Source of the DNA: a virus
DNA: 27,561 bases
IMG/VR virus record: IMGVR_UViG_3300028025_003166
Coordinates: 1 to 27,561 of that record
Direction: 5' to 3' (one strand)
In this document: in pieces, positions 3 through 27,511 of the stretch
Numbering within the stretch: the first letter of the stretch is position 1
How the letters are laid out: every line of letters starts with the position of its first letter
Notes under the pieces: generated by a model
What the model was told of the DNA's origin: nothing
Databases searched by the model: none
Seen by the model: only the letters and a program-made list of their open reading frames with translations
Translations under genes and position numbers: made by a program

Positions 3-287
3 TATCCTATAGATGAAACTGACCCTGAGCAGGTAGCAAATAAACTTGGATTACCTAAGCCTGGTATAAGAAAACATTACGGCCTGATTGCTCAAGAATT
101 AAAAGCAACTTTGGATGAACTTAATGTAGAGGATTTTGCTGGTTATGTACAGGATGATTTGACTGACCCAGATTCGACTCTGAGCATTTCCTATAACAAT
201 CTTTTGGCTCCGATGATTAAATCTATTCAAGAACTTTCAAACAAGATAGATTCTTTAACAACCCGTATTAACGCTCTAGAGGAATAG
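3..287 (+). CDS. Tail fibre/spike C-terminus with S74 intramolecular chaperone domain (5' partial)
   Basis: The open frame enters from the left edge and gives the last 94 residues of a longer protein. The motif KHYGLIAQEL, then SISYNNLLAPMIKSIQEL and a terminal heptad-like helix ending in ALEE, is the signature of the peptidase S74 / endosialidase intramolecular chaperone domain. In known members this domain trimerises at the C-terminus of phage fibres and spikes, helps the beta-helical shaft fold, and often cuts itself off. The receptor-binding part lies outside the window. The self-cleavage serine that normally starts the domain is also upstream, so autoproteolysis cannot be judged here. 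The stop lies 8 nt before the next start. Family assignment is by motif recognition and is strong for this fragment. Confidence 0.85.
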   Translation, partial: YPIDETDPEQVANKLGLPKPGIRKHYGLIAQELKATLDELNVEDFAGYVQDDLTDPDSTLSISYNNLLAPMIKSIQELSNKIDSLTTRINALEE

Positions 288-303
288 TACGCTTTGTGCG
301 TAC
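287..303 (+). repeat. Inverted repeat enclosing the GTG start codon of the secreted Thr-rich gene
   Basis: The arms GTACGC (287-292) and GCGTAC (298-303) are perfectly complementary around the loop TTTGT. The GTG start (296-298) spans the loop and the first base of the 3' arm, and the stop codon of the upstream fibre gene touches the 5' arm. In RNA this hairpin could mask the start until ribosomes finishing the fibre gene open it, but that is inference. Confidence 0.5.
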
Positions 304-1456
304 ATCTCGTTGGCTGATATTTGCTCCAGTAGCAATCTTGGCGTTATTTGCACAATCTGCTAAAGCAGATTTGCTAGGTGATTGGACCTACAGTCAGTCA
401 CAAGATTGTGGTGGTTCAATAGAGGTTGTTGACAACATCATTACTTTGCATGGTCCTGACTATAACGGTTGTAGTGGTGGGGCTCATTGGGTGCAGATTT
501 CCACAACTGTGCCTGCCGATGTGAACACAGTTGACTTTGATTGGACATATCAAACAAACGACGGTTGGGTTTATGACCCACCACAATATGGTATCAATGG
601 GGTTTATACCCTGATTACACAAGTCAACACTTCATCAGGAACCTTGTCTGTGCCTGTGATTGAAGGAGACATCTTTACGTTTCGTCAATACTCAATAGAT
701 ACCTGTTGCCAACCTGGACATCTTTCTATCAGTAACCTTTCGTTGTGGCAGTTCACTGCAACAACTACAACCAGTATCCAAGTGGATACGACCACACCTA
801 CGGAGTCAACATGGGAATCTACAACAACATCCACGATTCAGGAGACGAGCACTTCTACTATTGCACCCTCCACGACTGTTCCTGTGGAAGAAGAACCAAC
901 TACTACGATTGCTCAAACAACGACCACACTCCCGCCAGACACGACAGTAGTAGAAGAGACAACAACGGTTCCTGAACCAGAAACAACAGAACCAATTGTA
1001 ACAATTCCATCAGATACTTTACCTCCAGACACAACGGTACCTGACACAACAATACCTGACACTACGTTACCGGATGTGGTTGATGAGTTACCTGAAGAAG
1101 TTGTGCAATCCATTTTGGACTCTGTTGAGACTGGTGAACCACTTACCGAAGAACAATTTGACTCTGTTGTGGAGGCTTTAGCCGACCTAACAGAAGAACA
1201 GGCAGTAGAACTTATTGACCAAATATTAGACACAGAGGTCACTGTGGAACAAGCAACAGAGTTGGCGTCTAATCCAGATGTGCTTGCTGTAATTACCTTT
1301 GAACAGGCAGAAGAAATATTTGACACTATTGATGTAACCGAATTAGATAACACTCAGTTGGACGAACTGGTTGATGCGGTTCAGTCAGCGCCCACGCAGG
1401 TGCGTGAGGCGTTTGAAGACCAAATTAACGTCTTTGATGATGGCTGGTTCTCGTAA
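296..1456 (+). CDS. Secreted Thr/Pro-rich protein of unknown function
   Basis: This 386-residue protein starts with GTG; a GAGGAA sequence 11 nt upstream is a possible ribosome site. It has a clear Sec signal peptide: basic start, hydrophobic run at residues 7-19, and AKA before a likely cut after residue 24. Residues 25-150 form a compact, aromatic, cysteine-containing domain (CGGS, NGCSGG, TCCQ), which suggests disulfides outside the cytoplasm. Residues 155-265 are a low-complexity linker of repeated TTT, PDTT and ETT units. Residues 268-386 are acidic and helical, with EEQ/EEA repeats. Similar Thr/Pro linkers are common in exported actinobacterial proteins, which hints at the host. It sits between the fibre gene and the holin candidates. 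It could be a cell-surface or exclusion factor, a lysis accessory or a virion decoration. The function is unknown. Confidence 0.8.
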   Translation: MRTSRWLIFAPVAILALFAQSAKADLLGDWTYSQSQDCGGSIEVVDNIITLHGPDYNGCSGGAHWVQISTTVPADVNTVDFDWTYQTNDGWVYDPPQYGINGVYTLITQVNTSSGTLSVPVIEGDIFTFRQYSIDTCCQPGHLSISNLSLWQFTATTTTSIQVDTTTPTESTWESTTTSTIQETSTSTIAPSTTVPVEEEPTTTIAQTTTTLPPDTTVVEETTTVPEPETTEPIVTIPSDTLPPDTTVPDTTIPDTTLPDVVDELPEEVVQSILDSVETGEPLTEEQFDSVVEALADLTEEQAVELIDQILDTEVTVEQATELASNPDVLAVITFEQAEEIFDTIDVTELDNTQLDELVDAVQSAPTQVREAFEDQINVFDDGWFS

Positions 1457-1483
1457 GGTTAGGTAACAGCCCGCACTATATGT

Positions 1484-1651
1484 GTGAAGAAATTACTCTC
1501 TGAAATCCATGGTTTGACCTGGACTCTAGCCGGCACTGGAATGGTGCTGATTACGTTGTCAGGTTCAACAAGGATATTTGGGATACAAATCACGTTGGTC
1601 GCAATAGCGATTCATCTACTTGGTGCACTATTAGGAGATAAGAATGAATAA
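1484..1651 (+). CDS. Small two-TM protein, holin candidate
   Basis: This 55-residue protein begins at GTG 1484 with a basic, helical N-terminus. It has two hydrophobic stretches (about residues 11-26 and 31-50) separated by a short polar turn, and ends in the charged tail GDKNE. The size and two-TM hairpin shape fit a class II-type holin or antiholin. The reading frame overlaps the next start by 8 nt, so the two are probably translationally coupled. No strong ribosome site precedes the GTG; AGGTAAC is the only purine-rich stretch nearby. A competing ATG at 1480 runs into a stop after seven codons and is rejected. Confidence 0.6.
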   Translation: MKKLLSEIHGLTWTLAGTGMVLITLSGSTRIFGIQITLVAIAIHLLGALLGDKNE

Positions 1652-1910: not shown

Positions 1911-1912
1911 CA

Positions 1913-3971: not shown

Positions 3972-5830
3972 TGGCTAGGACATCTAATCAGGAGCTTATT
4001 ACTCGTTACCGCAAGAAGATTAACCAGTCTCGTCGTTGGCGAGAAGAAGAGAAATACGATGACCTTTGGCGTCGTATGATTGACATGTATCGTGGCAAGC
4101 ACTATTCCAAGGTTTCTGATTCCGACCAGCTTTTAGTTAACATTGCTTTTGCAACTATTAACGTTATTGCTCCTGGAGTTAGCGTTAACTATCCAAAGAT
4201 TACTGTCAATGCTCGTAAGTCCGAACAGGCTCCTAATGCTGTTGTTACCGAAGCGATTGTTAATTATTGGTGGAGACATTACGAATGTCAAAAAGAATTC
4301 CGTCGTGCTGTCAAAGACACCTTGATTCTTGGTCATGGTTGGGTTAAGACTGGTTATCGTTTTGTTGAGAAGGATGTTGAGCACGATGTTTCTGACGAAC
4401 TCGCTGATTCGAGTCCACAGTCGATAAGTGAGTCTGCTCAGATTATTACTGAGGACCGTCCTTTTGTTGAGCGCATCTCACCTTTTGATGTGTTTGTTGA
4501 CGCTGATTCTACTTCTATCTCTGACATGCGTTGGATTGCTCAGCGCATTCGTCGTCCTCTGTCCGACGTTAAAAAGGACAAGCGATATAATTCTTCTGCC
4601 CGCAACGAGGCTCAGCCTAGTCATTATTCTCGCTATGGATTAGATGGTTCCCGTGGCCGTGATGTGCCACGACCTTCTATGGAGCCTGACGATACTTACG
4701 TTGAGATTTGGGAATACTACGATATTGATTCAGGCAAGATGTCTGTTTTCTGCGATGGTGGTGACAAGTTCCTTGTCAACCCTACGGATATTCCGTTCTC
4801 CTTTGGTCATCCTTTTGTGATGATTTCCAACTACGAAGTACCTGATTACTTTTATCCAATGGGTGAGCTTGAGGCTATTGAGCCCTTGCAGATGGAATTG
4901 AATCAGACTCGTACACAGATGATGAATCATCGTAAACGATTCTCTCGCAAGTGGCTGTACAAAGAGTCGGCATTTGATGCCGACGGTAGGTCTGCACTTG
5001 AATCTGATGAGGACAATGTTATGGTTCCTGTTATCTCCGAAGAGAGTATCAACAGTGTTGTTGGTCCGATGCCGGCTGTTATCAGTCCGCCAGAGTTCTA
5101 CAATCAATCTGAATTGATTTCTAGCGACATTGACCGTGTGTCTGGTGTTTCTGAATATCAGCGTGGTTCTTTGCCAGAGATTCGTCGCACAGCAACAGAA
5201 GCCGGCATTATTCAAGATGCCGCTAACGCTCGTTCATCGGACAAGCTTGCTTTGATTGAACGTTCTATTGCTGAGGTTGCACGACGTTTGGTTGCTTTGG
5301 CTCAAGAGTTTATGACTGGTGAGTCTGCAGTTCGTATTGCTGGAACTGGAGCTAAACAGGTTTGGTTGAACTTTGACCGTGATTACTTGCAAGGTGAGTT
5401 TGATTTTGAGGTTGAGGGTGGTTCTACTCAACCAGTTAATGAGACTGTGCGACGTCAACAAGCCGTTCAGGTTGTTGACGCAATGGCTCCTTTTGTTAAT
5501 ACCGGAATTATTGATATGCCAAAACTTGCTGGTTATCTTTTGACTTATGGTTTTGGTATTAAAGATGGCGGTTCGTTTATTGTGCCACCTCCTCCACCTG
5601 AGCCACCTACACCACCTGCTCCAGAACCACAGATGCCACCACAGGGAATGCCTCCTCAGGGAATGCCACCGCAAATGCCACCAATGATGCCGCAGGGCAT
5701 GCCGCAAGGTATGCCACCTCAGGATATGGCTAGTGGATTACCACCAGAACTTGCATCATTACCTCCTGAGGTATTGATGCAATTAATGCAACAGATGCAG
5801 GGTGGCGGTCAGATGCCACCACAAATGTAA
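3971..5830 (+). CDS. Portal protein
   Basis: The 619-residue portal forms the dodecameric ring at the head vertex through which DNA enters and leaves. The N-terminal part is helical and rich in RRWREEE- and DLWRRMIDMYRGK-like segments. The core includes the wing/stem regions and a SSDIDRVSGVSEYQRGSL stretch followed by a long helix region (about 390-470), as in podovirus portals. The position after terminase and before scaffold supports the call. The last 80 or so residues are an unusual Pro/Met/Gln-rich tail of repeated PPQGM units, probably disordered; it could face the capsid interior or the scaffold. The start is ATG 3971, coupled to the upstream stop. Confidence is high from context and sequence. 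Confidence 0.9.
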   Translation: MARTSNQELITRYRKKINQSRRWREEEKYDDLWRRMIDMYRGKHYSKVSDSDQLLVNIAFATINVIAPGVSVNYPKITVNARKSEQAPNAVVTEAIVNYWWRHYECQKEFRRAVKDTLILGHGWVKTGYRFVEKDVEHDVSDELADSSPQSISESAQIITEDRPFVERISPFDVFVDADSTSISDMRWIAQRIRRPLSDVKKDKRYNSSARNEAQPSHYSRYGLDGSRGRDVPRPSMEPDDTYVEIWEYYDIDSGKMSVFCDGGDKFLVNPTDIPFSFGHPFVMISNYEVPDYFYPMGELEAIEPLQMELNQTRTQMMNHRKRFSRKWLYKESAFDADGRSALESDEDNVMVPVISEESINSVVGPMPAVISPPEFYNQSELISSDIDRVSGVSEYQRGSLPEIRRTATEAGIIQDAANARSSDKLALIERSIAEVARRLVALAQEFMTGESAVRIAGTGAKQVWLNFDRDYLQGEFDFEVEGGSTQPVNETVRRQQAVQVVDAMAPFVNTGIIDMPKLAGYLLTYGFGIKDGGSFIVPPPPPEPPTPPAPEPQMPPQGMPPQGMPPQMPPMMPQGMPQGMPPQDMASGLPPELASLPPEVLMQLMQQMQGGGQMPPQM

Positions 5831-5872: not shown

Positions 5873-6658
5873 ATGAGTGAAGTAGTAAGCAATGAACCAG
5901 TAGTAGAAGTTGCCCCTGAGTTAGAAAGCGAAGGACAAGCAGCAGCTGCGGGAGAAATTGAAAGCCTAAGTGAGCAGGAGATTGAACTTCTTCCGGTTGA
6001 CGAGTACGGCGACAAATATGTCGCTGTCCAAGTTAATGGCGAAGAAGTAAGAGTTCCTCTTAAAGAGGCGCTTTCTGGATACCAGCGTCAAGCGGATTAT
6101 ACCCGCAAGACACAGGAACTCAGTGAGCAACGGCGACAAGTACAGTTTGGTGGCGCATTGCAAGAAGCCTTGCAGAACGACCCAAAGGGTACTTTGGAAT
6201 TGTTGAAGCAACATTACGGATTAGACGAGACACCTTTAACCCCAGAGGAAGAAGAACTCCAAGACCCGGTTGAGAAACAATACCGACAGTTAGAACAACG
6301 AGTGCAGGCTTTTGAACATCAAAAGGCTGCTGACGAGTTGGAGCGTACTGTTGCTTCGCTGCAAGCGAAATATGAGGACTTCGATGCAAACGAAGTTGTT
6401 TCCAAAGCTTTGGCTTTGGGTTCAACCAATTTGGAAGCTGTCTACAAACAGATTTCGTTTGACAAAGTGTACGAAGATGCGCAGGCTATTCGTCAAATCC
6501 GCTCTAAAGCGGCTTTGGATGAACAGACTCGCACTAGTGCAAAACGTCAAGCGGGAGTTGTTAGTGGTGGCACAACATCGTCAAGTGCTGATGTTTCCGC
6601 CAAACCAATTACATCATTGCGGGAAGCATTTGAGGCTGCAAAGCGTCAACATTCTTAA
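5873..6658 (+). CDS. Capsid scaffolding protein
   Basis: This 261-residue acidic, helical protein lies directly between portal and major capsid genes, the canonical scaffold slot. The N-terminus is Glu/Ala-rich and disordered. A conserved-looking block follows (VQVNGEEVRVPLKEALSGYQ, then ADYTRKTQELSEQR), typical of podovirus scaffolds, and then long charged coiled-coil helices (about 130-220). The basic C-terminus (FEAAKRQHS) fits the capsid-binding end of scaffolds. Scaffolds guide coat subunits into procapsids and leave before packaging. The ribosome site GAAAGGACT stands 5 nt before ATG 5873. Confidence 0.85.
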   Translation: MSEVVSNEPVVEVAPELESEGQAAAAGEIESLSEQEIELLPVDEYGDKYVAVQVNGEEVRVPLKEALSGYQRQADYTRKTQELSEQRRQVQFGGALQEALQNDPKGTLELLKQHYGLDETPLTPEEEELQDPVEKQYRQLEQRVQAFEHQKAADELERTVASLQAKYEDFDANEVVSKALALGSTNLEAVYKQISFDKVYEDAQAIRQIRSKAALDEQTRTSAKRQAGVVSGGTTSSSADVSAKPITSLREAFEAAKRQHS

Positions 6659-6682: not shown

Positions 6683-7621
6683 ATGGTCGCTGCAAACAGC
6701 AACTTTGATAATCTATTAACAACAACCCTTGCGAATTACCGCAAGACCCTCACAGACAACGTGTTCACCGCACGTCCTTTGACTTACGCCCTTATGGAAA
6801 AGGGTCGCATTCGTATGCTTAACGGCGGTACGAAAATTGTTGAGCCACTGATTTATGGTCAGAACTCAACTGTTGGTTCGTACTCAGGTTACGACTCAAT
6901 TGCGCTTACCCCACAAGAAGGCATTTCTGCTGCAGAGTTTGAATGGAAGCAGTATGCTGCTTCGATTTCAATCAGCGGTATTGAAGAAGCCAAGAACAAC
7001 GGTGAGCAAGAAATCATCAACTTGTTGGAAGCAAAAATCATGCAGGCTGAAGAGTCCATGCGTGAGTCTTTCAACCAGATGTTCTTTTCAAACGGAACTG
7101 GCAACGGTGGAAAAGACTGGAACGGCCTTGGCAACTTGGTTGAGTCTGGCAACACCGTTGGTGGCATTGACTCCAACACCTACACATGGTGGAAGTCTTA
7201 CGAGGAAAACACTGCAACAGCATTGACTCTCGCACAAATGGCAACTGCCTACAATAGCGTTTCGGTTGGTAATGACCATCCAGACGTGTTGTTGACAAGT
7301 CAAACTTTGTTTGAGAAGTACGAAGCATTGCTTCAACCACAACTCCGTTACACGGACACTAAGACTGCAGATGCTGGATTCCAGAACCTGTTGTTTAAGG
7401 CCGCTCCAGTAATGTACGATGTGCATTGCACCGCAGGAACGTTCTACTTCCTCAACAGCAAGTACATCACTTTGGTTGGTCACTCGGATAAGTGGTTCTC
7501 ACAGACCGCATTTATCTCGCCAGAAGACACAGATGCACGTTATGCGCTCATCATGTGCTACGGCAACTTGACTGTACGTAACCGTGCAAAGCAAGGCAAA
7601 CTGACCTTAAAGACAGCCTAA
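6683..7621 (+). CDS. Major capsid protein (HK97 fold)
   Basis: This 312-residue coat protein builds the icosahedral head. It follows the scaffold gene and has the best ribosome site of the region (TTAAGGAGCAAATAAT before ATG). Recognisable parts are the N-arm with RPLTYALMEKGRIRMLNGG, an E-loop-like segment around YDSIALTPQEGISAAEFEWK, a long spine-type helix with many Glu/Met residues (about 100-130), and a FFSNGTGNGGKDWNGL loop frequent in podovirus HK97-fold coats. Codon choice is more regular than in neighbours, with many AAC, ACC and CGC codons, as expected for a strongly expressed gene. The terminator at 8079-8111 closes this high-expression block after the next gene. Confidence 0.9.
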   Translation: MVAANSNFDNLLTTTLANYRKTLTDNVFTARPLTYALMEKGRIRMLNGGTKIVEPLIYGQNSTVGSYSGYDSIALTPQEGISAAEFEWKQYAASISISGIEEAKNNGEQEIINLLEAKIMQAEESMRESFNQMFFSNGTGNGGKDWNGLGNLVESGNTVGGIDSNTYTWWKSYEENTATALTLAQMATAYNSVSVGNDHPDVLLTSQTLFEKYEALLQPQLRYTDTKTADAGFQNLLFKAAPVMYDVHCTAGTFYFLNSKYITLVGHSDKWFSQTAFISPEDTDARYALIMCYGNLTVRNRAKQGKLTLKTA

Positions 7622-16700: not shown

Positions 16701-19700
16701 CTTGCAATACGTTTGAATGACAGTGTTCGTGTTCGTCCTATTACAAAGTCCGTTGGGGCCAAGGTTGTCAATTCGGTTCCTGAAGCTCAGGCCAATTTAG
16801 ACACTTTGATGCAGTCCGAAGAGTACGTTGTTGCTAAGTCTGCTTATAACCGCAGTAATTCTTTTATTACACTTTCTGAAATTAACGGTCATAGTGTTGA
16901 TTGGACTCTTGGTGGTCGTGTGAGACCACCAATGTTGGATGTTGCACAGGAAATGGGTGGAGATATTCCTCTTCCTATTCCTACTGCAAAGTTTTGGTCA
17001 AAGCTTTTTGTGCAACATGAGACTTCTGGCAAGTATGCATCCGTGATTACTGACTGGGCCAACACAGAGGAAGTTTTGCGTATTACAAATCCTGCTGCTG
17101 TTCTTGCAGATGGTGTTGACAATATATCTCATGAGCGTTCTTTGCAGTATTTTGTTGATTACATCAGGCAGCAAGATGCTTCTGCCGGAGTTTTGATTGC
17201 CAACTCTGATGTCGCATCTGCTCGTCGTACTATTATTGAGAAGTTTTGGAAGAGTTCTGATGACAACGCTGTCCTTAAGAAACAGGAACGATTGAGTGCC
17301 ATCGTTCTTGGTGATGGCGTCAAGAATGCAACTCCTGCAGATATTGTTGATGCTCAGAAAGTCATTGCCGGCAATATTGACTCCCTGAAAGCAGAGCAAG
17401 TAAACTTACAGGGTGAAGTTAGACAGGCATCTGTTGATGTTGTTTATACTCCGACTGTCCTTGATGATTCTTTTTCTAAATTGTCTATTGCTCAGAAACA
17501 ACTTAAAGAAACTAGTCCGAAAGAACTGGCTGCTTCTATCGACACTGAGCGTAATGCTTTTGGTTCCGAGGTTGATTCTGCTATTAACGATGTTGTTGAT
17601 GTTGGTTCTGATGGTCCTGTTGATTATAGAAGTTTGCAGAAACTTCGAGCACGTCTTGGATACGAGTTTACTGGAACCAATCCCGATGAAGCTATTAGTT
17701 ATCAGTTTCAAGTTAATTTGGCTGATGGTAAGCGTTTTGCTGATGACGTTGACAACGTAATTGTTCACACTCCTTTTGAGCAAAAGTCGCGTGAACAGCT
17801 TTTGCATGAAGTTGAGACTTTGAAACAGATGCGCAGCATGGGTGTTGAGACTGTTGAGATTAAGTCTGATGGTATTAGACAGATGATTAAAGTGCGTGAA
17901 GATGCTCTTGGTGTTCAGCGTAAGGCTGCATCTTCTAATGGTTTGCCCGTGTCTCTTGATTTGAGAATGAAGCCAAAGAAGCAGAATGGTAAGAACGTTA
18001 TTGATTCCAAAACTAATCAAGTTGTGATGGAAGCTGATGTGCGACCTTCCAATGTTGGAACCTATCGTCGATACGACGATGGTACTGCATCTGGTCGTTT
18101 GTATTTTCGTAAAGAGGACATGAGTCGCATGAAGTTGTCGGCAAGAAATGCCCGCGCCCAACAACCTGATGGTCGGTGGGTTGAGGTTCGTTGGCGGCCT
18201 ATTACCCCTGATGATATGAAAGCAACATTTGTACCTAATGACTTAGTCGCTACGAATTCCAACAGGGAAGCACTTGGTTATTTTGGCATATACGAAAAAC
18301 CTGGTGATGAGACTTCCGCTGTGCGATGGTTGAAGACGGTTGAATATGGTGACGAACAGTGGGCTCGCTCTACATCTGAGTACGGTTTTACTAGCGAGCA
18401 AGCCAATACTTTTGGTGGTGTTATTGAGGCTGTTGACTCTCCAGATTTGCTTGGTGTTACTCCACGACTTCCCGAGTCTGTTTTTGTTGACGCACCCCCA
18501 AAGCCCATGACTGCTAGCGAAGAAGCTATCGCTCGTCTGCAATCTGATTTGGAATCTATTTCTAGTACCGTTGATGCATCTAATGCGTCAACCAAGAAGG
18601 CTCGTACTTCTGCACGCAGAGCAAACACGAAAGCACAGAAACTTGTTGTTGATTTGCAGGCTCAATTTGATTCTGTCAAAGGTTTAGTACAACCTCATGA
18701 CCCTGTTGCTATTAAAAAACTTGAAGACCGTATCCTTGAGGTGCAGAACATGATTAACAACACACAACGTGGCGTTGCATGGGACCCTCGCGTCAAGACA
18801 ACTATTCGCACTCGTGTTAAGGGTTCTGATGGCAAATACTACAACAAAGTTGCACCGAGCGAAACTGGTCGCACAACTGTGCGAACTCGTGTTGCTGGCA
18901 CATCTTCTGCTGCTCGTTCTTACAATCAGGGAATGCAGACTCTTGATGAGGGTATCGAGATGCTTCGTACTTTTGGTACTCGCGGTCCAGGGTTTGCGCA
19001 TTTGGAGAATATTGCACAAAGACAAATTCAATTACAGGCAGAGTACGAAGCAGCTGTAGCAGTTCTTGGCAATACTGAAGTTGAACGACGTTTGATGGAG
19101 GGACTGGAAAACTCGATTCTTACAATGGATGAGGCCGGTCGTGTGTTTAATAGTTCTACACAACAAGTTGGGCAGTTCCCACTAAGCAACGTCCGTAAAT
19201 TTTTTCCTGACCTTGAGCAAGGTTGGAAGTATCTTAGTGATGGCGTTACTGGTGCTACTGGCGTCAAAGGAAACTATGGTGTTTATCCTGGTCTTGCCGG
19301 CTCAGCAGAGTTTGCTGAATTATTCAGGCAAGCAAAACGATTTGATGACCCCGAGTATCTAAGACAGATGCATAAGTATGTAGGCAGTTACACAAAGTTT
19401 TTTAAGGCTTATGCGACTATGACTCCAGGTTTCCATGTGCGAAACGGATTGGCTAATGCTGTGAAACTTGTGTTCATGGGTGCTGAGTTTAAGAATATGA
19501 TTGAAGCCACCCCCTTGTATGTTGACTGGATGAAAGCATCAAGAGCTGGCACACAGTATGAAGACTGGGTTTTGACTAAGCCTTTTGAACTTCATGAAGT
19601 TTTGCGCACTGCACGAAAGTCAATGTTTGGTTCCGGTGGTGGAATTTTTACTGAAGACTTTAAGGACGCTGTTGGAGGTTCTCGTTTGTGGGACAACAAG

Positions 19701-20375: not shown

Positions 20376-20884
20376 TGAAACGGCAATACACAGGCAACAA
20401 AGACGGTGCAGCCAAAGGACTACGTCCAGGCATGAAAGTCTTTATTGAAGAAGTAATTAAACTTGGCGACGGTGCTTTCTGGAACAACGGCGATTTTGGT
20501 GTACGTCCCATGAGGGGCAAAGAAATTTTGAGTGTTCACGCAACAGGCAGGGCTGTGGACTTTTCTTATCGCAACATGGGCAAAGGCAAAGGCGTCCCTA
20601 ACGGACGCCGACACGCTGTGCGAATGTGCAAAATCCTTGTGGATAACGCAGACCTTTTGGGTCTAGAAGCATTATTTGATTATTTTCCAGCACCACACGG
20701 TCGCGCATGGATGTGCGATAGAGACGCTTGGTCAAACTATAAGAAGGAAACAATTCACGGAGCCCCCAAGGGGGACTGGTTGCATGCGGAACTTTCGCCA
20801 GAGATGGCTGACAGCCCTGCTAAAGTTCGTGAGGCTTTTGCGAAATTAGTTCTTCCTGCGGAAGAACAATTGAAGCCTGCTTAA
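20375..20884 (+). CDS. Endolysin, M15-type D,D/L,D-peptidase-like
   Basis: This 169-residue protein has the M15/VanY-like zinc-peptidase pattern: S53-V-H55-ATGRAV-D62 supplies two metal ligands and W135-L-H137-A-E139 the third histidine region. Such enzymes cut peptide cross-links in peptidoglycan at the end of infection. The start ATG overlaps the giant gene's stop, behind AAGGAGAAAT. There is no signal peptide, so release would need a holin; candidates lie at 1484-1910, at the other end of this late operon. The N-terminal 45 residues (FGVRPMRGKE) may bind substrate. The last 65 nt overlap the convergent minus-strand gene. Virion-associated use cannot be excluded. Confidence 0.8.
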   Translation: MKRQYTGNKDGAAKGLRPGMKVFIEEVIKLGDGAFWNNGDFGVRPMRGKEILSVHATGRAVDFSYRNMGKGKGVPNGRRHAVRMCKILVDNADLLGLEALFDYFPAPHGRAWMCDRDAWSNYKKETIHGAPKGDWLHAELSPEMADSPAKVREAFAKLVLPAEEQLKPA

Positions 20885-21143
20885 GAACTTTCTGACTAAT
20901 AACCATTTGGATTGGGATGTGCGTAGGCATACCAACTGTTTTTAGGTTTGGTACTTCATCCGGGAAGTATGACGTTACTAACGTAACGTATCCTTCTAAA
21001 CAGTTAGGCCAAAGCCATCCGACAGTTACTACAGTTGTGTCAGTTGGTTTGTAATCTTTGATTACAGTCCAACCGTTTTCTGCATCGTAAGCGTCACGCC
21101 AGTGAACGCTTACTAAATCCCAGTTGCATCTAATTGGCTTCAT
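20820..21143 (-). CDS. Hypothetical protein, last gene of the minus operon
   Basis: This is a 107-residue protein from ATG 21143; in-frame ATGs at 21155 and 21173 would add up to ten residues and deepen the overlap with the upstream gene. It has an ordered, aromatic core (WRDAYDAENGWTVI, VVTVGWLWPNCLEGYVTLVTSYF, then THIPIQMV) that reads like a small conserved phage beta-domain of unknown function. The start overlaps the upstream stop by 14 nt. The C-terminus is coded in the 65-bp overlap with the plus-strand endolysin. Confidence 0.65.
   Translation of the reverse strand: MKPIRCNWDLVSVHWRDAYDAENGWTVIKDYKPTDTTVVTVGWLWPNCLEGYVTLVTSYFPDEVPNLKTVGMPTHIPIQMVISQKVLKQASIVLPQEELISQKPHEL
20849..20867. 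repeat. Hairpin inside the convergent gene overlap, possible bidirectional attenuator
   Basis: GTTCTTCC (20849-20856) and GGAAGAAC (20860-20867) form a perfect 8-bp stem with loop TGC. It lies within the 65-bp overlap of the two converging genes. Neither side has a proper T-run (the minus side reads TAATTTC), so a terminator role is only possible, not shown. Confidence 0.45.
21087..21113 (-). repeat. 11-bp bulged stem-loop in the terminal minus gene
   Basis: On the plus strand, GTAAGCG (21087-21093) pairs with CGCTTAC (21107-21113) and TCAC with GTGA. That makes 11 bp with one bulged A and loop GCCA. A second hairpin, ACGTTAC/GTAACGT with a 4-nt loop, lies nearby at 20972-20989. Confidence 0.55.
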
Positions 21144-21423
21144 CGTGCTCTTCATATGGGTCAATGTTTTCATCTGCTAAATAGATTTCTAACGCTGATA
21201 TTAGTCCATTGATAAAATAGGCGATGGCTTCAAAGCCATCTTCATATCCGTTTTTTGTTAGCTCCCAAGCTTTGCACAATTCTATGGCGGATTGATTGGA
21301 TGCACTAATCATCAGATTGACACCATTTTTCATGTTGACAATTATTGCATCACCGTTTTTGTTTATTGCATCTACCTGTGCGCGTGGGATAATATCATGT
21401 ATCCAGTTGTGGTCGTTCGACAT
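21130..21423 (-). CDS. Small acidic hypothetical protein
   Basis: This 97-residue protein begins at ATG 21423 (MSNDHNWIHDII). An upstream extension of the frame to 21564 is rejected because it runs antiparallel in logic to a better gene in another frame (21395-21592). Residues 15-45 look like a beta-hairpin (GDAIIVNMKNGVNLMISAS), followed by a helix and an acidic tail (ENIDPYEEHDEAN). It overlaps its upstream neighbour by 29 nt. The role is unknown. Confidence 0.65.
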   Translation of the reverse strand: MSNDHNWIHDIIPRAQVDAINKNGDAIIVNMKNGVNLMISASNQSAIELCKAWELTKNGYEDGFEAIAYFINGLISALEIYLADENIDPYEEHDEAN

Positions 21424-21592
21424 ATCGTTTCTTTCTTTTTGGGTTAGTGATGTATAAACATCCTTGTGGTAATCCGTTTTCAAGTACACCGTGTCCAACG
21501 AGTGTTTCCCCGAAGTACTTTTTAAGTATTTCAGCAACTTCATATATATTGATTTCATTATCAAATCCCACCGTAATTTGTCGTCTCATCAT
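21395..21592 (-). CDS. Small hypothetical protein
   Basis: This 65-residue protein starts at ATG 21592 (a second ATG follows directly), behind AAGAAAC. The sequence looks like a compact alpha/beta fold (RRQITVGFDNEINIYEVAEI, then LYITNPKRKKRY). The start lies inside the end of the HTH gene (32-nt overlap). It is unknown to me; position suggests an accessory early gene. Confidence 0.65.
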   Translation of the reverse strand: MMRRQITVGFDNEINIYEVAEILKKYFGETLVGHGVLENGLPQGCLYITNPKRKKRYVERPQLDT

Positions 21593-21950
21593 TGTTTCTT
21601 AATCTTTCTAGCACCGTGGGGTCCTGTAGCATAATTTTTCTGAGGTTATCCATTGCAGAGTTCCTTAATCTCCAAGCATGAGTTTTAGTTACCCCCAATC
21701 TTTCACCTAGTTCTTCTAACGAAATCATTTCTGTATTTACTGCGTCAATAATAAATCTGTCTTGTTCGCTGAGTTTGTCAATACATCCTGCGACAGCTTC
21801 ACGAAACGGTTGCAGTTCTTCTACCGACTCCCTGATGTTCTCACCTGGGGCAGCCTGCATCAACGCCTCAGTGGGCGTTTCAGGTCTCCTAGGACCACGG
21901 ATGGTTACTTCGTGGAATGGAGTAAGGGGGACTTCTTTATTGCTCGGCAC
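21561..21950 (-). CDS. Sigma-70 region 4-like HTH protein
   Basis: This 129-residue protein starts at GTG 21950. Residues 45-108 match sigma region 4 / sigma-like HTH proteins: a helix with LSEQDRFIIDAV, then SLEELGERLGVTKTHAWRLRN as the helix-turn-helix, then SAMDNLRKIM. Residues 1-45 are Pro/Glu-rich and probably disordered; region 2, which melts promoters, is absent. Such phage proteins may act as transcription activators that redirect host RNA polymerase to late promoters, or as DNA-binding regulators. It is encoded at the end of the early operon, which suits an early-to-late switch, but that role is inference. It overlaps the upstream nuclease gene by 14 nt. Confidence 0.75.
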   Translation of the reverse strand: MPSNKEVPLTPFHEVTIRGPRRPETPTEALMQAAPGENIRESVEELQPFREAVAGCIDKLSEQDRFIIDAVNTEMISLEELGERLGVTKTHAWRLRNSAMDNLRKIMLQDPTVLERLRNNDETTNYGGI

Positions 21951-22380
21951 CTGGAGTATCGTATAGCGGATTTGTTATCATGTCCATTACTTCTTCTGGT
22001 AGTAGTAGAAACCCTTTAGTTGGATTGTTGGACATTGGGGCAAACTTCTTTAGACGTTTTTCTGACAATGTCTGTATATATCGCTTTAATCGTTCCACCT
22101 TAATAACTACAAGGCTTCCGTCTAAGGCATATACGTAGACCCACCAGTCTGCGAGGGTTACTTCTACACCTGATGGTTTCCATCCGGTGTCACGTGGGTT
22201 TTGTTGTGTTTCAACAACCATCCGACCATTGCGATAACGGTCAGTTTTTACTTCAAATGAACCTGTGGATATTGCTGTGAGGAAGTCTTTGGTTATTTGT
22301 TCACCTTTTTTGCCGAACTGTAAATCATTTTTGAAGTTGTATTGTTGTGTTGCAGGAATGTCCCAGCGGTTGTCTTTCAT
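21937..22380 (-). CDS. PD-(D/E)XK-like endonuclease family protein
   Basis: This 147-residue protein starts at ATG 22380, sharing ATGA with the RusA stop; a longer frame to 22401 is less likely. The visible pattern is E27 in GKKGEQ, then SFEVKTDR (E43, K45, D47), VVETQQN (E57), and KPSGVEVTLADWWVYV. This order resembles small phage and Holliday-junction-resolvase-like PD-(D/E)XK proteins. It probably cuts branched or host DNA. The C-terminal 50 residues are basic and may contact DNA. It would be the second nuclease next to a RusA resolvase, so redundancy or a different substrate is possible. Confidence 0.65.
   Translation of the reverse strand: MKDNRWDIPATQQYNFKNDLQFGKKGEQITKDFLTAISTGSFEVKTDRYRNGRMVVETQQNPRDTGWKPSGVEVTLADWWVYVYALDGSLVVIKVERLKRYIQTLSEKRLKKFAPMSNNPTKGFLLLPEEVMDMITNPLYDTPGAEQ
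22166..22190 (-). repeat. 10-bp stem-loop in the PD-(D/E)XK-like CDS
   Basis: ACACC pairs with GGTGT and GATGG with CCATC on either side of a single 1x1 mismatch, with loop TTT. It is within coding sequence. Confidence 0.5.
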
Positions 22381-22739
22381 GCTTTTTCCACATACAGACA
22401 AACAATCTGTTTGTCATCAGTGTATGCGGTGCCATTTAGAGCATCGAGTACTGCTTTGGCATAGTTATCTAAATCACCTGTGAGTTTACTGAGTGGACCC
22501 TCAACCAACGGATTGTGCATGACTGGTTCAATTTGAATTTCTGTACCTTCAATTGTAAAACGAAGTTTTACTGACAGCAAACCTTTCTCAAACATTGGTC
22601 CTGCGTACATCTCTTTGATTGCTTTTTCATATTCTCGTGTAGCAGGGTGTGTGTATGCATGACCGGTTTTCATAACTCTTGGTCTTGCTTTTGCTCTTGG
22701 TCGAAGTGCGAACACTTGATTGAATATATATTCTTTCAT
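22377..22739 (-). CDS. rusA: RusA-family Holliday junction resolvase
   Basis: This 120-residue protein has the diagnostic RusA C-terminal motif G88-D89-L90-D91-NYAKAVLDALNG, then YTDDKQIV (D108, D109). Those acidic residues bind the metal that cleaves four-way junctions. The N-terminus has the basic RPRAKARPRV segment expected for DNA binding. Length is normal for the family. It resolves recombination or replication intermediates before packaging. The start ATG overlaps the upstream primase stop by 4 nt, and its own stop overlaps the next gene by 4 nt, so the three are tightly coupled. Confidence 0.9.
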   Translation of the reverse strand: MKEYIFNQVFALRPRAKARPRVMKTGHAYTHPATREYEKAIKEMYAGPMFEKGLLSVKLRFTIEGTEIQIEPVMHNPLVEGPLSKLTGDLDNYAKAVLDALNGTAYTDDKQIVCLYVEKA

Positions 22740-23644
22740 GGTCTGAATGCTCCTGTTGTGAATCCACCGTAGGTGTCTTCAATGATTTTGACTAGTTGTT
22801 CTACGCAATCTTCACGCAGATGAAACTTACCCCAACGCTTGTCAGCATCAACAAGAATGATGTAAGCAAGATTCATAGGAACATTATAGTCACACATTCG
22901 ATGTGCAAGCATGCATAGAGTGTTAGACCTGTCTTGATGAGACAACGGTCCACCAAACCATATTGCTTTGATATGTTTGGAGCAATGACGCAAGGCTTCT
23001 TCTACTGACGCTGAAACATCTAGGTTTTCCATTGTTGCTCTAGCTCTTGGTCTATGTTTTTCCGCAAGGGGTCGCAGCATTTCTGCTGTGACTCTGTTGT
23101 CTAAGGCTTCAGCCAAGAACGTTCCCAATTCAATTGGCATGTCTGCGTCATCAATCATGTATCTTGTTTCTGGTGGGGTGGTCATTGCGCCAGGATATGG
23201 TAGCCTGACATAATTACCTACATCTTTTGCTTGCTCCTGTTTTGGATTTACTTCTTTGGCAACTAGATTGATGGCTTCGTGCGCAGCCAAAAATGCTCTA
23301 CGCATGATTGGAGCAGGAATCCATTCTGATGCAAACACCCACACATGGAAACCGCGAACTGTTTTTTCTATGAACGCTGGTATTTTCTGAGACTGTAGTG
23401 CTAATTGAAGGTTTCTTGCTAAATCAATTTCATTTACATCGATGTCTGAACAACCCCACCTGACTGTGCTGTCATCTTTCAGTGGGTAGATGCCGATAAG
23501 TTCTTCGTCATACAAGTGACGTGCAAACGATTTGTAGTTGGTTGGTTCCTTGATGGAACCACCTTCCCATGTGCCATACGCATCTGTGCGACCTTGGAAG
23601 AGTTCCATGAACTCTTCAATTGCATCATTCATAGGGTGCTTCAT
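22736..23644 (-). CDS. AEP-superfamily primase (primase-polymerase-like)
   Basis: This 302-residue protein starts at ATG 23644; TTG 23650 and ATG 23632 are in-frame alternatives and no ribosome site decides. Motifs of archaeo-eukaryotic-type primases are visible: S-D67-I-D69 in WGCSDIDVN (metal-binding DxD), R98-GFH100VWVF (sxH motif) and YVRLPYPG (about 145-152). The C-terminal 100 residues are helical and may be a PriCT-like or helicase-binding part. AEP primases make primers and some also extend DNA. It lies directly downstream of the helicase gene, with overlap, so the two are likely the replisome core. Confidence 0.8.
   Translation of the reverse strand: MKHPMNDAIEEFMELFQGRTDAYGTWEGGSIKEPTNYKSFARHLYDEELIGIYPLKDDSTVRWGCSDIDVNEIDLARNLQLALQSQKIPAFIEKTVRGFHVWVFASEWIPAPIMRRAFLAAHEAINLVAKEVNPKQEQAKDVGNYVRLPYPGAMTTPPETRYMIDDADMPIELGTFLAEALDNRVTAEMLRPLAEKHRPRARATMENLDVSASVEEALRHCSKHIKAIWFGGPLSHQDRSNTLCMLAHRMCDYNVPMNLAYIILVDADKRWGKFHLREDCVEQLVKIIEDTYGGFTTGAFRP
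23071..23092 (-). repeat. 9-bp stem-loop in the primase CDS
   Basis: GTCGCAGCA (23071-23079) pairs with TGCTGTGAC (23084-23092), with one G-U, around loop TTTC. Further wobble pairs extend it outward. Confidence 0.5.
23597..23617 (-). repeat. Perfect 9-bp stem-loop near the primase start
   Basis: GAAGAGTTC (23597-23605) and GAACTCTTC (23609-23617) are exact reverse complements with loop CAT. The stem lies 27-47 nt downstream of ATG 23644. Confidence 0.6.
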
Positions 23645-24659
23645 ACTCAAGTCCCATCTGCTTGTACTGTCGTGGTAGTTCGCCGTTGAGTTCTCTTAGG
23701 CGACCTGTCATGGCGTTAAGTTCAAAGTCAACATCATCAACAAGTTGTCCAGCAGGACGTTTGTTTTTGAGCAAGTTGATTGTCACAGTATGTTCGTGAA
23801 TCTTTGCTTCATAACGCAGATACTCCAAACGCTCTTGCAAGCGTTCGGAACTACTCCTATTGAGCTTCTCAATGAGTTCATTGATTTCTGTTTGAATTTC
23901 ATACTTGCGTCTACGAACACCAAGGATTGCTGTTGCTTGTTGTTCACCACCGAACGCACCTGAACTCATAGTTGGTTTTCTACCATCAGCACCTGCGTGT
24001 CTTGATGTTTGGTGTAGCACAAGAAGTGGAACATCATGTTTGCGACCAAAGGCTTTAAGGAAGTTTGCTTTGTCCGGTACAGTTTCTCCTGCTTGGATAA
24101 GGTCTAAGAAGTCCACGACAACAAGTTCTGGTGACTGACCCCATACATCGCACAGTTCGTTGTATCCACGTTCCATGTCTGAGATGGTAAGTGATTGGTC
24201 GAAGACTGCAAGGTTGGGATAGTCTTCGTTTGCTGTTTGATGAAGTAGGTCTATTGCTTCTTGGTCGTGTTGTGCGATTCGTTGCTCAAGCACTCTGGCG
24301 TCAATGTTGTGAGTGATGCAAGCAAGTTTGATGAGAACAAGTTCTCTTGGTTCGTCAGGGATGAAGAGCGCGACATGCTTGTCGCGGTTATTGCGCAACA
24401 TGTGAAGTAGTAATAATGTCTTGCCACCGTGAGCGAACCCCAGCACCATAGCGACTTCGCCAGGTGCAATTCCACGCATCTCTGCGTCTATGCGAGCGAT
24501 ACCGAGATTGATACGTTCTTGAGGGGACTGAGCCCACCTGACGAACGAGTCAACTGACTCACCTAACGGTGTGTACATTCGGTTTTCGGGAAGTGGGGAG
24601 ACATTGTGTCTCCCCACCATTTCCCAGCCCGCAGCAATTTCTTCTGCGGACATTTTCAT
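23625..24659 (-). CDS. DnaB/RecA-fold replicative helicase
   Basis: This 344-residue protein has a RecA-type ATPase core: Walker A G74-FAHGG-K80-T81, Walker B LVVVD183, and LLVLHQTSR around 212-220, as in DnaB-like helicases. After TMSSGAFGGEQQ there is an unusual charged, coiled-coil-like insertion (about residues 250-295) before the C-terminal INLLKNKRPAGQ strand that normally ends the domain. The DnaB N-terminal domain is missing; the first 50 residues are only a short linker region. It probably unwinds DNA as a ring and works with the adjacent primase. ATG 24659 shares one base with the upstream stop (TAATG) behind GAGGTAAG. Confidence 0.85.
   Translation of the reverse strand: MKMSAEEIAAGWEMVGRHNVSPLPENRMYTPLGESVDSFVRWAQSPQERINLGIARIDAEMRGIAPGEVAMVLGFAHGGKTLLLLHMLRNNRDKHVALFIPDEPRELVLIKLACITHNIDARVLEQRIAQHDQEAIDLLHQTANEDYPNLAVFDQSLTISDMERGYNELCDVWGQSPELVVVDFLDLIQAGETVPDKANFLKAFGRKHDVPLLVLHQTSRHAGADGRKPTMSSGAFGGEQQATAILGVRRRKYEIQTEINELIEKLNRSSSERLQERLEYLRYEAKIHEHTVTINLLKNKRPAGQLVDDVDFELNAMTGRLRELNGELPRQYKQMGLEYEAPYE
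24588..24625 (-). repeat. Strong stem-loop at the 5' end of the helicase CDS
   Basis: GTGGGGAGACA (24593-24603) pairs perfectly over 11 bp with TGTCTCCCCAC (24607-24617), loop TTG. A further GGGAA/TTCCC (24588-24592 / 24621-24625) extends the stem beyond a 3-nt bulge. It starts 34 nt after the start codon and no T-run follows. Confidence 0.7.
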
Positions 24660-25081
24660 TACTTACCTCGTGGTGGCCAGTAGGACTTTTCTCCACTTGT
24701 AGCACGGAACGAAGGACGCTTTGGATTCTCTGCCAAACCGTCACGGTTGTCCCATACTTCTGTCACGCCGTCACGCTTGCAGGCTTTGATGAGCCATTCA
24801 GGGATTGGACCATGAGTTGTACCTTTGATGCTTACCGCACCACCCGAGGAAACTGCTTCGCTTCCTGCGAATGATGATTGGACCATTTGGACAACGTTGT
24901 TTGTTGTTACTTCTTGTGCTGCTGATGTGTCACCGAAGATTTCGTCAAACACTAGTTCCTTGATGGTTGAAAAAAGAACTGCATACTCACTGATGCGAGC
25001 ATCCATTTCTTTTGTTTTATCTGTTAGGTCTGCTGCAATTTTTGCACAGACTTGTGTGATTATTGCTCTATCTTTATCCAT
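24659..25081 (-). CDS. Hypothetical replication-operon protein
   Basis: This 140-residue protein lies between the nuclease and helicase genes and shares one base with each (TAATG at both ends). The N-terminal half is helical (about residues 5-50). A Ser/Gly/Val-rich linker follows. The last 45 residues form a distinctive block, IPEWLIKACKRDGVTEVWDN and then RDGLAENPKRPSFRA, ending YWPPRGK. The aromatic and basic C-terminal motif looks like a small conserved binding domain and could contact DNA or a replisome partner. I do not recognise a named family. Confidence 0.7.
   Translation of the reverse strand: MDKDRAIITQVCAKIAADLTDKTKEMDARISEYAVLFSTIKELVFDEIFGDTSAAQEVTTNNVVQMVQSSFAGSEAVSSGGAVSIKGTTHGPIPEWLIKACKRDGVTEVWDNRDGLAENPKRPSFRATSGEKSYWPPRGK
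25028..25051 (-). repeat. 10-bp stem-loop near the start of the 140-aa gene
   Basis: GTCTG pairs with CAGAC and TGCAA with TTGCA. One bulged C and the loop TTT complete a 10-bp stem 30-53 nt downstream of the start codon. Confidence 0.5.
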
Positions 25082-25914
25082 TACTCTGCCTCCTCGGCGT
25101 TATCGGAGCCTAAATAACTCCCCTTGCATTTGTCCCACACTGGGCACCATCTCTGCGAGCAGAGAAAGTGTTGGTCGTTGGCGAGCCATCGACCTTCCGT
25201 TGTGTTTTGATTATACATCAGCACTGTTCGTGCTAATGCTGTTGCTTGTTCAACAATCCAGTTGCCATGGGCTTCTGTTCTGCTGACACTCACAATTTGT
25301 CCGGTACTGGACGCATTGCGAATCATGACACCAAACTTGAACGTGGCAGGATAGTCAATCATGCCCATTTCATATGCTGCTTTGGTGTAAATCGAAGACT
25401 GAATGTTTTGTGTTTGTTTTTCTGCTTGGTAATATTTTCTTGCAGCAGTTTTCCAATCCCAAATACTTTCTTGATGAAAGTAATCCATGGTTCCTTCAAA
25501 GTGAAGTTCATAGTCATCAAGCATCCCCACTTTTGTGGTGAACTTGAACTCTGATGTGCCACCTAGTGGCACATTAGGGTAGATGTCTCGCAACCATGCA
25601 TCGCACATTGAACGAATGTGTGTGTTCCAATGTGAAGGATTGGTGTTGGTAATGTTGATTGCTTTACCAGCTTCAACAAGTTCTTTTTCTTTCCAACGGA
25701 AAGACTCAACAGCATGGTCTCCCATGTGCTGAGGTTCCACTTCTTCGTTTAGCACAGCCTCAATGCCAGTGTGACAGGCAGTACCCATCATGGCTGAGTC
25801 GTTTTCTTTGCGAGACTCGGGGTGCAAGGCGGAAAGCCTTGCGCGTTCGGGGCACATTAACGCATCACCCAGCCAAGATTGGCGGATGAAGATTTTGTTA
25901 TCTTCGATTCTCAT
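25081..25914 (-). CDS. Cas4/RecB-like PD-(D/E)XK nuclease with four-cysteine set
   Basis: This 277-residue protein carries the RecB-family nuclease motifs: H48 in GTACHTGIE, D144 in EGTMD, D153-W-K155 in WDWKTA, and Q172-x3-Y176. C21 (in MCPERARLS) together with C252, C257 and C263 (CSQRWCPVWDKC) is the layout of Cas4/AddB-type enzymes that hold a 4Fe-4S cluster tying the two ends together. Such enzymes degrade DNA ends, in recombination or host DNA breakdown. It is the first gene after the consensus promoter, behind AAGGAGA 6 nt before ATG. An origin in CRISPR adaptation is not suggested: no cas1, cas2 or array is present. Confidence 0.85.
   Translation of the reverse strand: MRIEDNKIFIRQSWLGDALMCPERARLSALHPESRKENDSAMMGTACHTGIEAVLNEEVEPQHMGDHAVESFRWKEKELVEAGKAINITNTNPSHWNTHIRSMCDAWLRDIYPNVPLGGTSEFKFTTKVGMLDDYELHFEGTMDYFHQESIWDWKTAARKYYQAEKQTQNIQSSIYTKAAYEMGMIDYPATFKFGVMIRNASSTGQIVSVSRTEAHGNWIVEQATALARTVLMYNQNTTEGRWLANDQHFLCSQRWCPVWDKCKGSYLGSDNAEEAE
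25552..25576 (-). repeat. 11-bp stem-loop in the Cas4/RecB-like CDS
   Basis: ATGTGCCAC (25554-25562) pairs perfectly with GTGGCACAT (25566-25574), loop CTA. One G-U and one T-A pair extend the stem to 11 bp. Confidence 0.6.
25822..25844 (-). repeat. 9-bp stem-loop near the start of the Cas4/RecB-like CDS
   Basis: GCAAGGC (25824-25830) pairs with GCCTTGC (25836-25842) around GGAAA, extended by T-G and G-C pairs. It is 70-92 nt downstream of the start codon. Confidence 0.5.
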
Positions 25915-25930: not shown

Positions 25931-25951
25931 GCACCACCTTTGGGGTGGTGC
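25931..25951 (-). promoter_or_regulatory. Leader hairpin in the 5' UTR of the replication operon
   Basis: GCACCACC and GGTGGTGC form a perfect 8-bp stem with a 5-nt loop, between the predicted transcription start (near 25970) and the ribosome site of the nuclease gene. It may stabilise the early mRNA 5' end, bind a regulator or act as a weak attenuator. It is non-coding, so selection for structure is plausible. Confidence 0.6.
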
Positions 25952-25976
25952 TACAGTGGCTTGTACCTGTAAAGAC

Positions 25977-26006
25977 ATTATACATACGTTTTTAGAATGT
26001 TGTCAA
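25977..26006 (-). promoter_or_regulatory. Consensus sigma-70 promoter for the replication operon
   Basis: Read on the minus strand, TTGACA (26001-26006) and TATAAT (25977-25982) are both perfect consensus hexamers separated by 18 bp. The promoter points at the nuclease-helicase-primase operon. The -35 box contains the TGA stop of the upstream transglycosylase gene. A perfect match implies strong transcription by the unmodified host housekeeping RNA polymerase, as expected for an early promoter. Confidence 0.9.
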
Positions 26007-26422: not shown

Positions 26423-26644
26423 TTATTCTCCTTTGAGGGCTTCGATTAAGACTGATTCAAACTCCTTTTTAGCTTCCATAAGCCATAGGTATTCATTGTA
26501 AACATCATCTGCTCTTGGTCCATCCCCAAGACGGTTGATTTTTTTTGCTAGCTGGTCCACCCCAATAGACAAGGATTTTACGACGGCTCTTAACTCTGTA
26601 AGTGTAATCGTTACATCAAGGGTTGGTTCATTTTTTCTTGACAA
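26423..26644 (-). CDS. Small helical hypothetical protein
   Basis: This 73-residue protein has no in-frame ATG; the only reasonable start is TTG 26644, with AGGAG about 9 nt upstream. It contains one long helix-forming stretch (LTELRAVVKSLSIGVDQLAKKIN) and a second acidic helix near the end. It overlaps the upstream gene by 17 nt and directly abuts the transglycosylase start. A regulator or accessory early protein is possible; nothing specific is recognised. Confidence 0.6.
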   Translation of the reverse strand: MSRKNEPTLDVTITLTELRAVVKSLSIGVDQLAKKINRLGDGPRADDVYNEYLWLMEAKKEFESVLIEALKGE

Positions 26645-26876
26645 AAACTACATCTCCTGACGCAATTTGCGTTACATACGGACACATTTCTTTTAAGGCT
26701 TCAATTGCTTGGGTAAATATGTTATTGAATTCACGCAACATTTCTAAATTGAAGTTGTCACAAATCCAAGACCACGTATAAATATCTATGTCATCTGGTT
26801 TTGTTTGCCAGAATACACACACATCTGAGTCCATATCAAACTTTGACATTTCCTTTATTGCTTCTTTGACTTGCAT
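26628..26876 (-). CDS. Small hypothetical protein
   Basis: This 82-residue protein starts at ATG 26876, with AAAGG 9 nt upstream. It has a mixed alpha/beta pattern with several Trp and Cys (DVCVFWQTKPDDIDIYTWSW) and a C-terminal strand DVVFVKKK. The first 40 nt are also the end of the upstream frame. An internal ATG at codon 10 is an alternative start. The function is unknown. Confidence 0.6.
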   Translation of the reverse strand: MQVKEAIKEMSKFDMDSDVCVFWQTKPDDIDIYTWSWICDNFNLEMLREFNNIFTQAIEALKEMCPYVTQIASGDVVFVKKK

Positions 26877-27048
26877 ATAAAATACCTTTCTCTGATAGTT
26901 GGGTCTTGACCCATTCTTCGCAACGCAACAGCCATCCGTAGGTATCTACGGATGGCATATCTTTGCCGGCTAACCAACTTAGAAACGCTCTAAGGTCATC
27001 TTCTGACGCTGTTGGTTTACAGTTGTTTGTCGTATGTTCGGAAAGCAT
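26836..27048 (-). CDS. Small hypothetical protein
   Basis: This 70-residue reading from ATG 27048 (ATG 27057 is an alternative) has a plausible helical core (SEDDLRAFLSWLAGKDM and then YGWLLRCEEWVKTQL). The longer upstream extension of this frame is low-complexity Cys/Ser/Thr sequence lying over a better gene and is rejected. It overlaps both neighbours by 30-40 nt, which is deep even for this operon, so it deserves moderate trust only. Confidence 0.5.
   Translation of the reverse strand: MLSEHTTNNCKPTASEDDLRAFLSWLAGKDMPSVDTYGWLLRCEEWVKTQLSEKGILYASQRSNKGNVKV
26931..26956 (-). repeat. Perfect 11-bp stem-loop in the 70-aa gene
   Basis: GCCATCCGTAG (26931-26941) is the exact reverse complement of CTACGGATGGC (26946-26956) with loop GTAT. 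A second palindrome, TGGGTC/GACCCA, lies 17 nt away at 26900-26913. There is no T-run on either side. Confidence 0.65.
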
Positions 27049-27511
27049 TGGCAGCATCTTTTTTGTCCTGGAACAAACGTGACATTGCGTCTTTGAGACT
27101 ACCTCTTGCTTGGTTCTCGTCGTACTGCAACTCACGTTCATCTTTGAAGCGCACAGAAGAAGACACATTGCCTTGACTGTCGCAATATACAAACAGACGC
27201 ACCCTTGTGCGTTCAGGATGTTGGCTTGGAGCTATTGCGTCATCTTCATCGCCTGTTTTGTCTTTGTCAATAGGTGCTGCCCAACCTGTAGTTACAACTC
27301 CGAAACCGTCATATGGTACGAGTTTTACTGCTGATTCCCAGTTGCTCATCAGCTCATACACATCACCGTTTTCTGACTCTTTGACTACGATTACTCCACC
27401 ATCCGTGAACTCATGTACACCGTACAGCTGAGCTTTGTCCATGGCAAAACCATCATCGCCTTCTGGTATTTGTTTTAGCACTTCTTGGTCAATTGTTTTG
27501 AATGTAATCAC
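27017..27511 (-). CDS. Conserved-looking hypothetical early protein
   Basis: This 164-residue protein starts at GTG 27511 behind ATGGAGAAAATTAA. It is beta-rich in the first 120 residues, with a FGVVTTGWAAPID segment, an acidic patch (DKTGDEDDAIAP) and then SQHPERTRVRLFVYCD. It ends in a charged helix (GSLKDAMSRLFQDKKDAANAF). The GWAAP and HPERxRVRL blocks look like those of uncharacterised actinophage proteins I have seen, but no function is known. The GTG start shares GTGA with the stop of the frame entering from the right. Confidence 0.7.
   Translation of the reverse strand: MITFKTIDQEVLKQIPEGDDGFAMDKAQLYGVHEFTDGGVIVVKESENGDVYELMSNWESAVKLVPYDGFGVVTTGWAAPIDKDKTGDEDDAIAPSQHPERTRVRLFVYCDSQGNVSSSVRFKDERELQYDENQARGSLKDAMSRLFQDKKDAANAFRTYDKQL

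Follow-up and report, generated by a model that had tools for sequence, protein, structure and literature searches.

The viral sequence analysed here, IMG/VR record IMGVR_UViG_3300028025_003166 (27,561 bases, the complete record, referred to below as the window), carries a large excess of short perfect hairpins inside its protein genes. Beyond what had been noticed in an original prediction made on this sequence, the excess proved to be a trait of the phage lineage to which the window belongs, a large family of uncultured aquatic phages, and is absent from most other phages examined. Our preferred reading, a tentative one, is that weak selection maintains short DNA hairpins throughout the genome, with single-stranded replication intermediates as the likely site of action; conversion of single bases between the arms follows close behind as a rival.

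The window was scanned for perfect inverted repeats with loops of 3-8 nucleotides (nt), and the counts were compared with block dinucleotide shuffles and synonymous codon shuffles (n=200). The scan revealed 107 perfect stems of at least 6 base pairs (bp), 46 of at least 7 bp, 15 of at least 8 bp, 8 of at least 9 bp and 3 of at least 11 bp. Expectations for the same thresholds were 38.3, 9.7, 2.5, 0.55 and 0.04 with dinucleotide shuffles and 47.6, 13.6 ± 3.1, 5.4, 1.9 and 1.2 with synonymous shuffles, the latter values being too high because gene overlaps and intergenic stretches were left unshuffled. None of the 200 synonymous shuffles equalled the observed counts at any threshold from ≥5 to ≥9 bp. 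The original claim of far more stems than chance predicts therefore withstood the synonymous shuffles; its estimate of about 0.4 stems of at least 9 bp differed little from the dinucleotide expectation, and the sixteen stems it listed were all found in place, the six called perfect exactly as described.

The excess was confined to inverted repeats, with none for direct or mirror repeats. It was maximal at loops of 3-6 nt and was gone by about 20-25 nt. Longer stems were steadily more enriched, with a factor of 1.24 at 4 bp and of about 16 at 11 bp. C-G was favoured over G-C as the closing pair, which is consistent with hairpins that physically fold, as DNA. The density of perfect stems (at least 7 bp) was about 1.5 per kilobase (kb), and the rate was even across genes, positions within genes and strands. 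Forty-two of the 46 stems of at least 7 bp lie wholly within called genes, the remaining four being located at 20972-20989, 21050-21066, 25931-25951 and 26931-26956. Rho-independent terminators were considered and rejected on account of this location within genes, and none was found at the operon junction (20800-21200). Neither a consensus in the stems nor a motif in their flanks was found, which makes the originally suggested packaging or recombination signals unlikely in so far as these would share a sequence.

Relatives were collected by capsid protein (80), by helicase (9) and by primase (80), together with 31 relatives of the distant phage MW202803; some of these loci are in the same contigs. 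The family of the window is referred to as family A and the MW202803 relatives as family B. All family A loci of at least 13 kb showed the excess, 2.0 to 5.0-fold for stems of at least 7 bp (z 4 to 12). As an internal control, perfect stems in pooled de-replicated genes were counted at loops of 3-7 nt and of 30-119 nt. The ratio between the two was 8.4 in family A and 13.2 in family B for 8-bp stems, and 15 and 28, respectively, for 9-bp stems. Replication-side genes, which do not overlap with the first set at 88% identity, showed ratios of 5.7, 11.9 and 24.8 at 8, 9 and 10 bp. The same ratio at 8 bp was 0.5 in the HTVC010P and P-SSP7 groups. T7, lambda, P22 and phiEco32 displayed no excess or a deficit, and T4 a mild excess. 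More distant capsid relatives, including BUCT555 and MW202489 (own polymerase), and the phages HTVC023P, JeffCo and R5C with related primases showed little or no excess, so that neither head-gene relatives that have a DNA polymerase of their own nor other primase-bearing phages were supported as carriers of the trait. The hairpin excess is a family trait.

Some further observations were made on these phages. Perfect hairpins in genes were depleted in T7 (2 stems of at least 7 bp, 8.9 expected), and short hairpins in genes were mildly enriched, about 2-fold, in N4 and its relatives. The P-SSP7 group, with its depletion of long perfect stems, was enriched in stems with one G-U pair, an RNA-like pattern opposite to that of the window. 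Even spacing of the stems was indicated in family A (123 neighbours within 200 nt, 159 expected; z -3.1) and was discarded, as it was not seen in family B after de-replication.

Analysis of substitution rates showed slower synonymous change in the arms. At third codon positions of family A stems of at least 8 bp, the ratio of arm to flank rates was 0.42 (0.18-0.72), 0.45, 0.54 and 0.70 as identity fell from >96% to 84-88%. The third-position rate of the loops roughly equalled that of the flanks, and long-loop inverted repeats, analysed as a control, gave ratios of 0.90-1.01. The constraint was partially replicated at the replication-side loci, with ratios of 0.62, 0.47, 0.55 and 0.83 for stems of at least 8 bp. 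Compensated double changes at pairs of third positions occupied 26.8% of cells in the alignments of the window and 7.3% in matched controls; among de-replicated close pairs the odds of compensated to non-compensated changes were 1.88 (p 0.0003). In the portal gene, the stem at 4966-4984 displayed three compensated synonymous pairs (GTCGGCATTTGATGCCGAC vs ATCAGCGTTTGACGCTGAT) with an identical peptide. The arms covary; their pairing has been kept through evolution, and the sequence itself is indifferent. The arms do not diverge freely across relatives, in line with the original prediction.

Ordered RNA structure, also proposed originally, would imply selection for secondary structure of the messenger RNA (mRNA), acting on stability, translation or transcription pausing. 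The location of the hairpins in genes and the covariation of their arms at synonymous sites are compatible with it. Selection on RNA predicts that G-U pairs in the sense strand are tolerated better than A-C pairs. Static counts gave G-U to A-C odds of 0.77 in family A, 1.23 (not significant) in family B and 0.95 in replication-side genes, and the odds in observed changes were 0.98. An earlier test with shuffles as expectation had placed G-U lowest, and the internal long-loop control served to check this result. Since the same test gave odds of 1.46 (p 5e-8) in the P-SSP7 group, it has the power to detect wobble pairing. Apart from the 10-bp stems of one set, discussed below, G-U was not preferred over A-C in three tests; a search of the window against Rfam revealed no known RNA family, and loop base preferences were unlike between families A and B. 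Because G-U is tolerated no better than A-C, we regard ordinary mRNA structure as quite unlikely.

Conversion between the arms is harder to separate from selection. In this scenario, which we consider a serious possibility, the replication machinery of the lineage would often fold a strand back on itself and use one arm as the template for the other, a single-base quasi-palindrome correction that serves no function. Imperfect stems would become perfect and mutations would reach both arms, in agreement with the 8-13-fold enrichment of perfect stems compared with only about 2-3-fold for stems with one mismatch, with the excess of compensated doubles and with the uniformity across genes and strands without consensus. 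Template switching is able to generate hairpins and to preserve them (PMC8794818); it has also been put forward for the palindromes in coding sequences of nematomorph mitochondria (PMC6649704). However, unbiased conversion predicts a neutral per-site rate at sites without constraint, whereas pairs of third positions changed at 0.19 (0.00-0.47), 0.59 and 0.60 of the control rate above 88% identity; protein constraint on doubles could account for part of these low values. In addition, substitution clusters fitted inverted templates no better than direct, mirror or complement controls, and only one of 600 loop changes was an inversion. A two-site model described stems of at least 7 bp better by selection (-lnL, the negative log-likelihood, 1012.5 vs 1024.5 for conversion), with the opposite outcome for stems of at least 8 bp (see below).

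The cluster and loop results bear equally on template switching of several bases, by which entire stems would be made in single events. In a few pairs of close relatives, one arm indeed differs by 3-4 bases and the other does not, as in L010 (TCGTGTAGTTTACACGA vs TCACATTGTTTACACGA), and one-arm changes of at least 3 bases were somewhat over the binomial expectation (12 vs 4.2 at 86-91% identity). One-arm changes of at least 2 bases were, however, at or under this expectation, thousands of clusters showed no excess over control templates, and loops were not inverted. The multi-base process is largely refuted at the divergences examined and seems very improbable as the source of the stems; of the quasi-palindrome templating suggested in the original prediction, only the single-base form still has to be reckoned with. 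Chance, base composition, codon usage or an assembly artefact, for which no support was found, can practically be dismissed in view of the synonymous, dinucleotide, long-loop, direct and mirror controls and of a signal shared by dozens of metagenome contigs.

Weak selection for hairpins in single-stranded DNA would act mostly via synonymous codon choice. The hairpins would be kept as short intrastrand DNA structures in which pairing counts and sequence does not, and individual hairpins would be conserved briefly, drift through compensated changes and turn over. The window comes from a tailed phage and is probably a piece of a longer genome. Its plus strand encodes SU10-type portal, capsid and adaptor proteins; the replication operon on its minus strand comprises genes for a DnaB-like helicase, an archaeo-eukaryotic primase (AEP), RusA and a PD-(D/E)XK exonuclease. 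The primase (PF22548) was present in the window and in all 16 long relatives tested, and none of these 16 contained a recognisable DNA polymerase of family A, B or C (PolA, PolB, PolIII-alpha). A profile of six primase homologues matched PDB entries 7nqd and 7nqf (about 1e-21), which we take to be a CRISPR-associated PrimPol. The likeliest site of hairpin action may be single-stranded replication intermediates. The replisome would combine a PrimPol-type primase with a DnaB-like helicase, with no recognisable DNA polymerase of the phage, and hairpins on these intermediates could be start points of primers or protect the strand. RSF1010 RepB', which belongs to the archaeo-eukaryotic primase superfamily, binds a hairpin in single-stranded DNA (PMC4434180), and the N-terminal 300 residues of the NrS-1 PrimPol prime and polymerise DNA (PMC7102993), which makes a role of hairpins on such intermediates plausible. 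A causal link between a PrimPol without polymerase and the hairpins is an inference. It is rather doubtful that the lineage writes a distributed, sequence-independent DNA-hairpin code into its protein genes as a substitute for sequence-specific origins or primase sites, to be used by its PrimPol-based replisome on single-stranded DNA in priming or in managing the exposed strand.

Several observations weigh against selection on DNA hairpins at replication intermediates. The ratio of arm to flank rates in family A stems of at least 8 bp was 0.96, near 1, at 80-84% identity, exact 7-bp stems at replication-side loci showed little constraint above 82% identity (0.85-0.94), and compensation was uneven across the bins of close pairs. 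For stems of at least 8 bp, the two-site model preferred conversion (-lnL 431.4 vs 438.7 for selection). G-U exceeded A-C in 10-bp stems of replication-side genes (odds 1.67, p 0.04), so that a contribution of RNA is possible, and also among third-third changes in the redundant set. The flanks contain no motif marking priming sites. HTVC023P and JeffCo carry related primases together with their own polymerase and yet display little or no excess, hence the primase alone is insufficient to explain the trait; moreover, gene content is confounded with lineage. A search of cellular genomes with the capsid protein revealed no relative and hence no host.

An excess of short inverted repeats in genes is a known weak effect, usually attributed to mutation. 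Ladoukakis and Eyre-Walker reportedly found that short inverted repeats slightly exceed expectation in prokaryotic coding sequence and ascribed this to sequence-directed (quasi-palindrome) mutagenesis. The stems described here are similarly short, perfect, above expectation, within genes and without consensus, but they occur in one phage lineage among those examined, at 8-13-fold (8 bp) and 15-28-fold (9 bp), and their arms are conserved between close relatives. Phage N4 possesses functional short DNA hairpin promoters, which are few and share sequence. N4, whose relatives have the mild 2-fold excess, is likewise a tailed phage with short DNA hairpins; in contrast to its promoters, stems and flanks in the window lack a consensus, and no virion RNA polymerase (vRNAP) was identified in the window. 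Mitochondrial genes of Nematomorpha contain coding palindromes of up to 284 bp with unknown function (PMC6649704). These are also perfect, mismatch-free inverted repeats in genes that are gained and lost, whereas the hairpins of this tailed phage have stems of 7-12 bp with short loops and number dozens per genome. The RSF1010 system of ssiA/ssiB and RepB' resembles the window in that the element encodes a primase of the AEP superfamily, which in RSF1010 binds the hairpin; it differs in having a single defined site on each strand, where there are sequence contacts and a GTG has been proposed as the start (PMC4434180), compared with about 1.5 stems per kb without shared or flanking sequence. NrS-1 also encodes a PrimPol, but with an 8-nt recognition sequence and a fused helicase domain (PMC7102993), whereas the predicted primase and the helicase of the window are separate proteins.

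A literature search of open papers revealed no report of a comparable trait in a phage lineage. The strong effect, the hundreds of relatives and the contrast with phages showing none or a deficit make selection and conversion between arms testable against each other. If selection is true, protein genes carry DNA-level information of a second kind, which resides in structure only. Should conversion be true, the lineage is a natural system of unusually frequent arm-to-arm copying and a warning that covariation alone does not prove a functional structure. Both readings direct attention to an unstudied mode of phage replication in which a PrimPol-type primase occurs without a recognisable DNA polymerase.

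Table 1. Individual stems and relevant genes of the window, with lengths in bp, nt and amino acids (aa)
Feature	Position	Strand	Remarks
8-bp stem, 3-nt loop	2280-2298		large terminase gene; unconserved in most relatives
9-bp perfect stem, 4-nt loop	3112-3133		large terminase gene; absent from the original list
8-bp stem	4966-4984		portal gene; clearest covariation, 84/111 double changes compensated (63 relatives)
7-bp stem, covarying arms	6402-6419		75/88 double changes compensated; fully paired in only 7/74 relatives
SU10-type major capsid protein	6683-7621	+	PF17236; query for finding the family; 274 relatives in viral contigs
9-bp perfect stem, 6-nt loop	13784-13807		absent from the original list
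12-bp perfect stem, 3-nt loop	15276-15302		in 2225-aa gene; 10 to 12 pairs retained in 4/4 alignable relatives, two with compensated change
9-bp perfect stem, 6-nt loop	16909-16932		
7-bp stem	20972-20989		between two convergent operons; 7/7 double changes compensated; without terminator-like T tail
RusA-type Holliday junction resolvase	22377-22739	-	PF05866, E 8.9e-17; in 16/16 long relatives
Archaeo-eukaryotic primase (PrimPol type), 304 aa	22736-23650	-	PF22548, E 1.3e-18
9-bp perfect stem, 3-nt loop	23597-23617		primase gene
DnaB-like replicative helicase	23625-24659	-	PF03796, E 3.9e-14; phrog_19
11-bp perfect stem, 3-nt loop	24593-24617		near helicase gene start; other allele with two adjacent compensated pairs still perfect
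PD-(D/E)XK exonuclease	25081-25914	-	PF12705, E 3.2e-7; phrog_69
9-bp perfect stem, 3-nt loop	25554-25574		exonuclease gene
11-bp perfect stem, 4-nt loop	26931-26956		outside called genes

A second stem between the convergent operons (21050-21066) is without a T run. At the window start, directly after the 3' end of another gene, the protein encoded at 296-1456 contains long Thr/Glu/Pro-rich stretches and has no match in Pfam. The structural operon includes the single gene of 2225 aa at 13698-20375, whose product is probably a virion or ejection protein, and the replication operon encodes a 129-aa protein with a sigma-70 region 4 domain (21561-21950).

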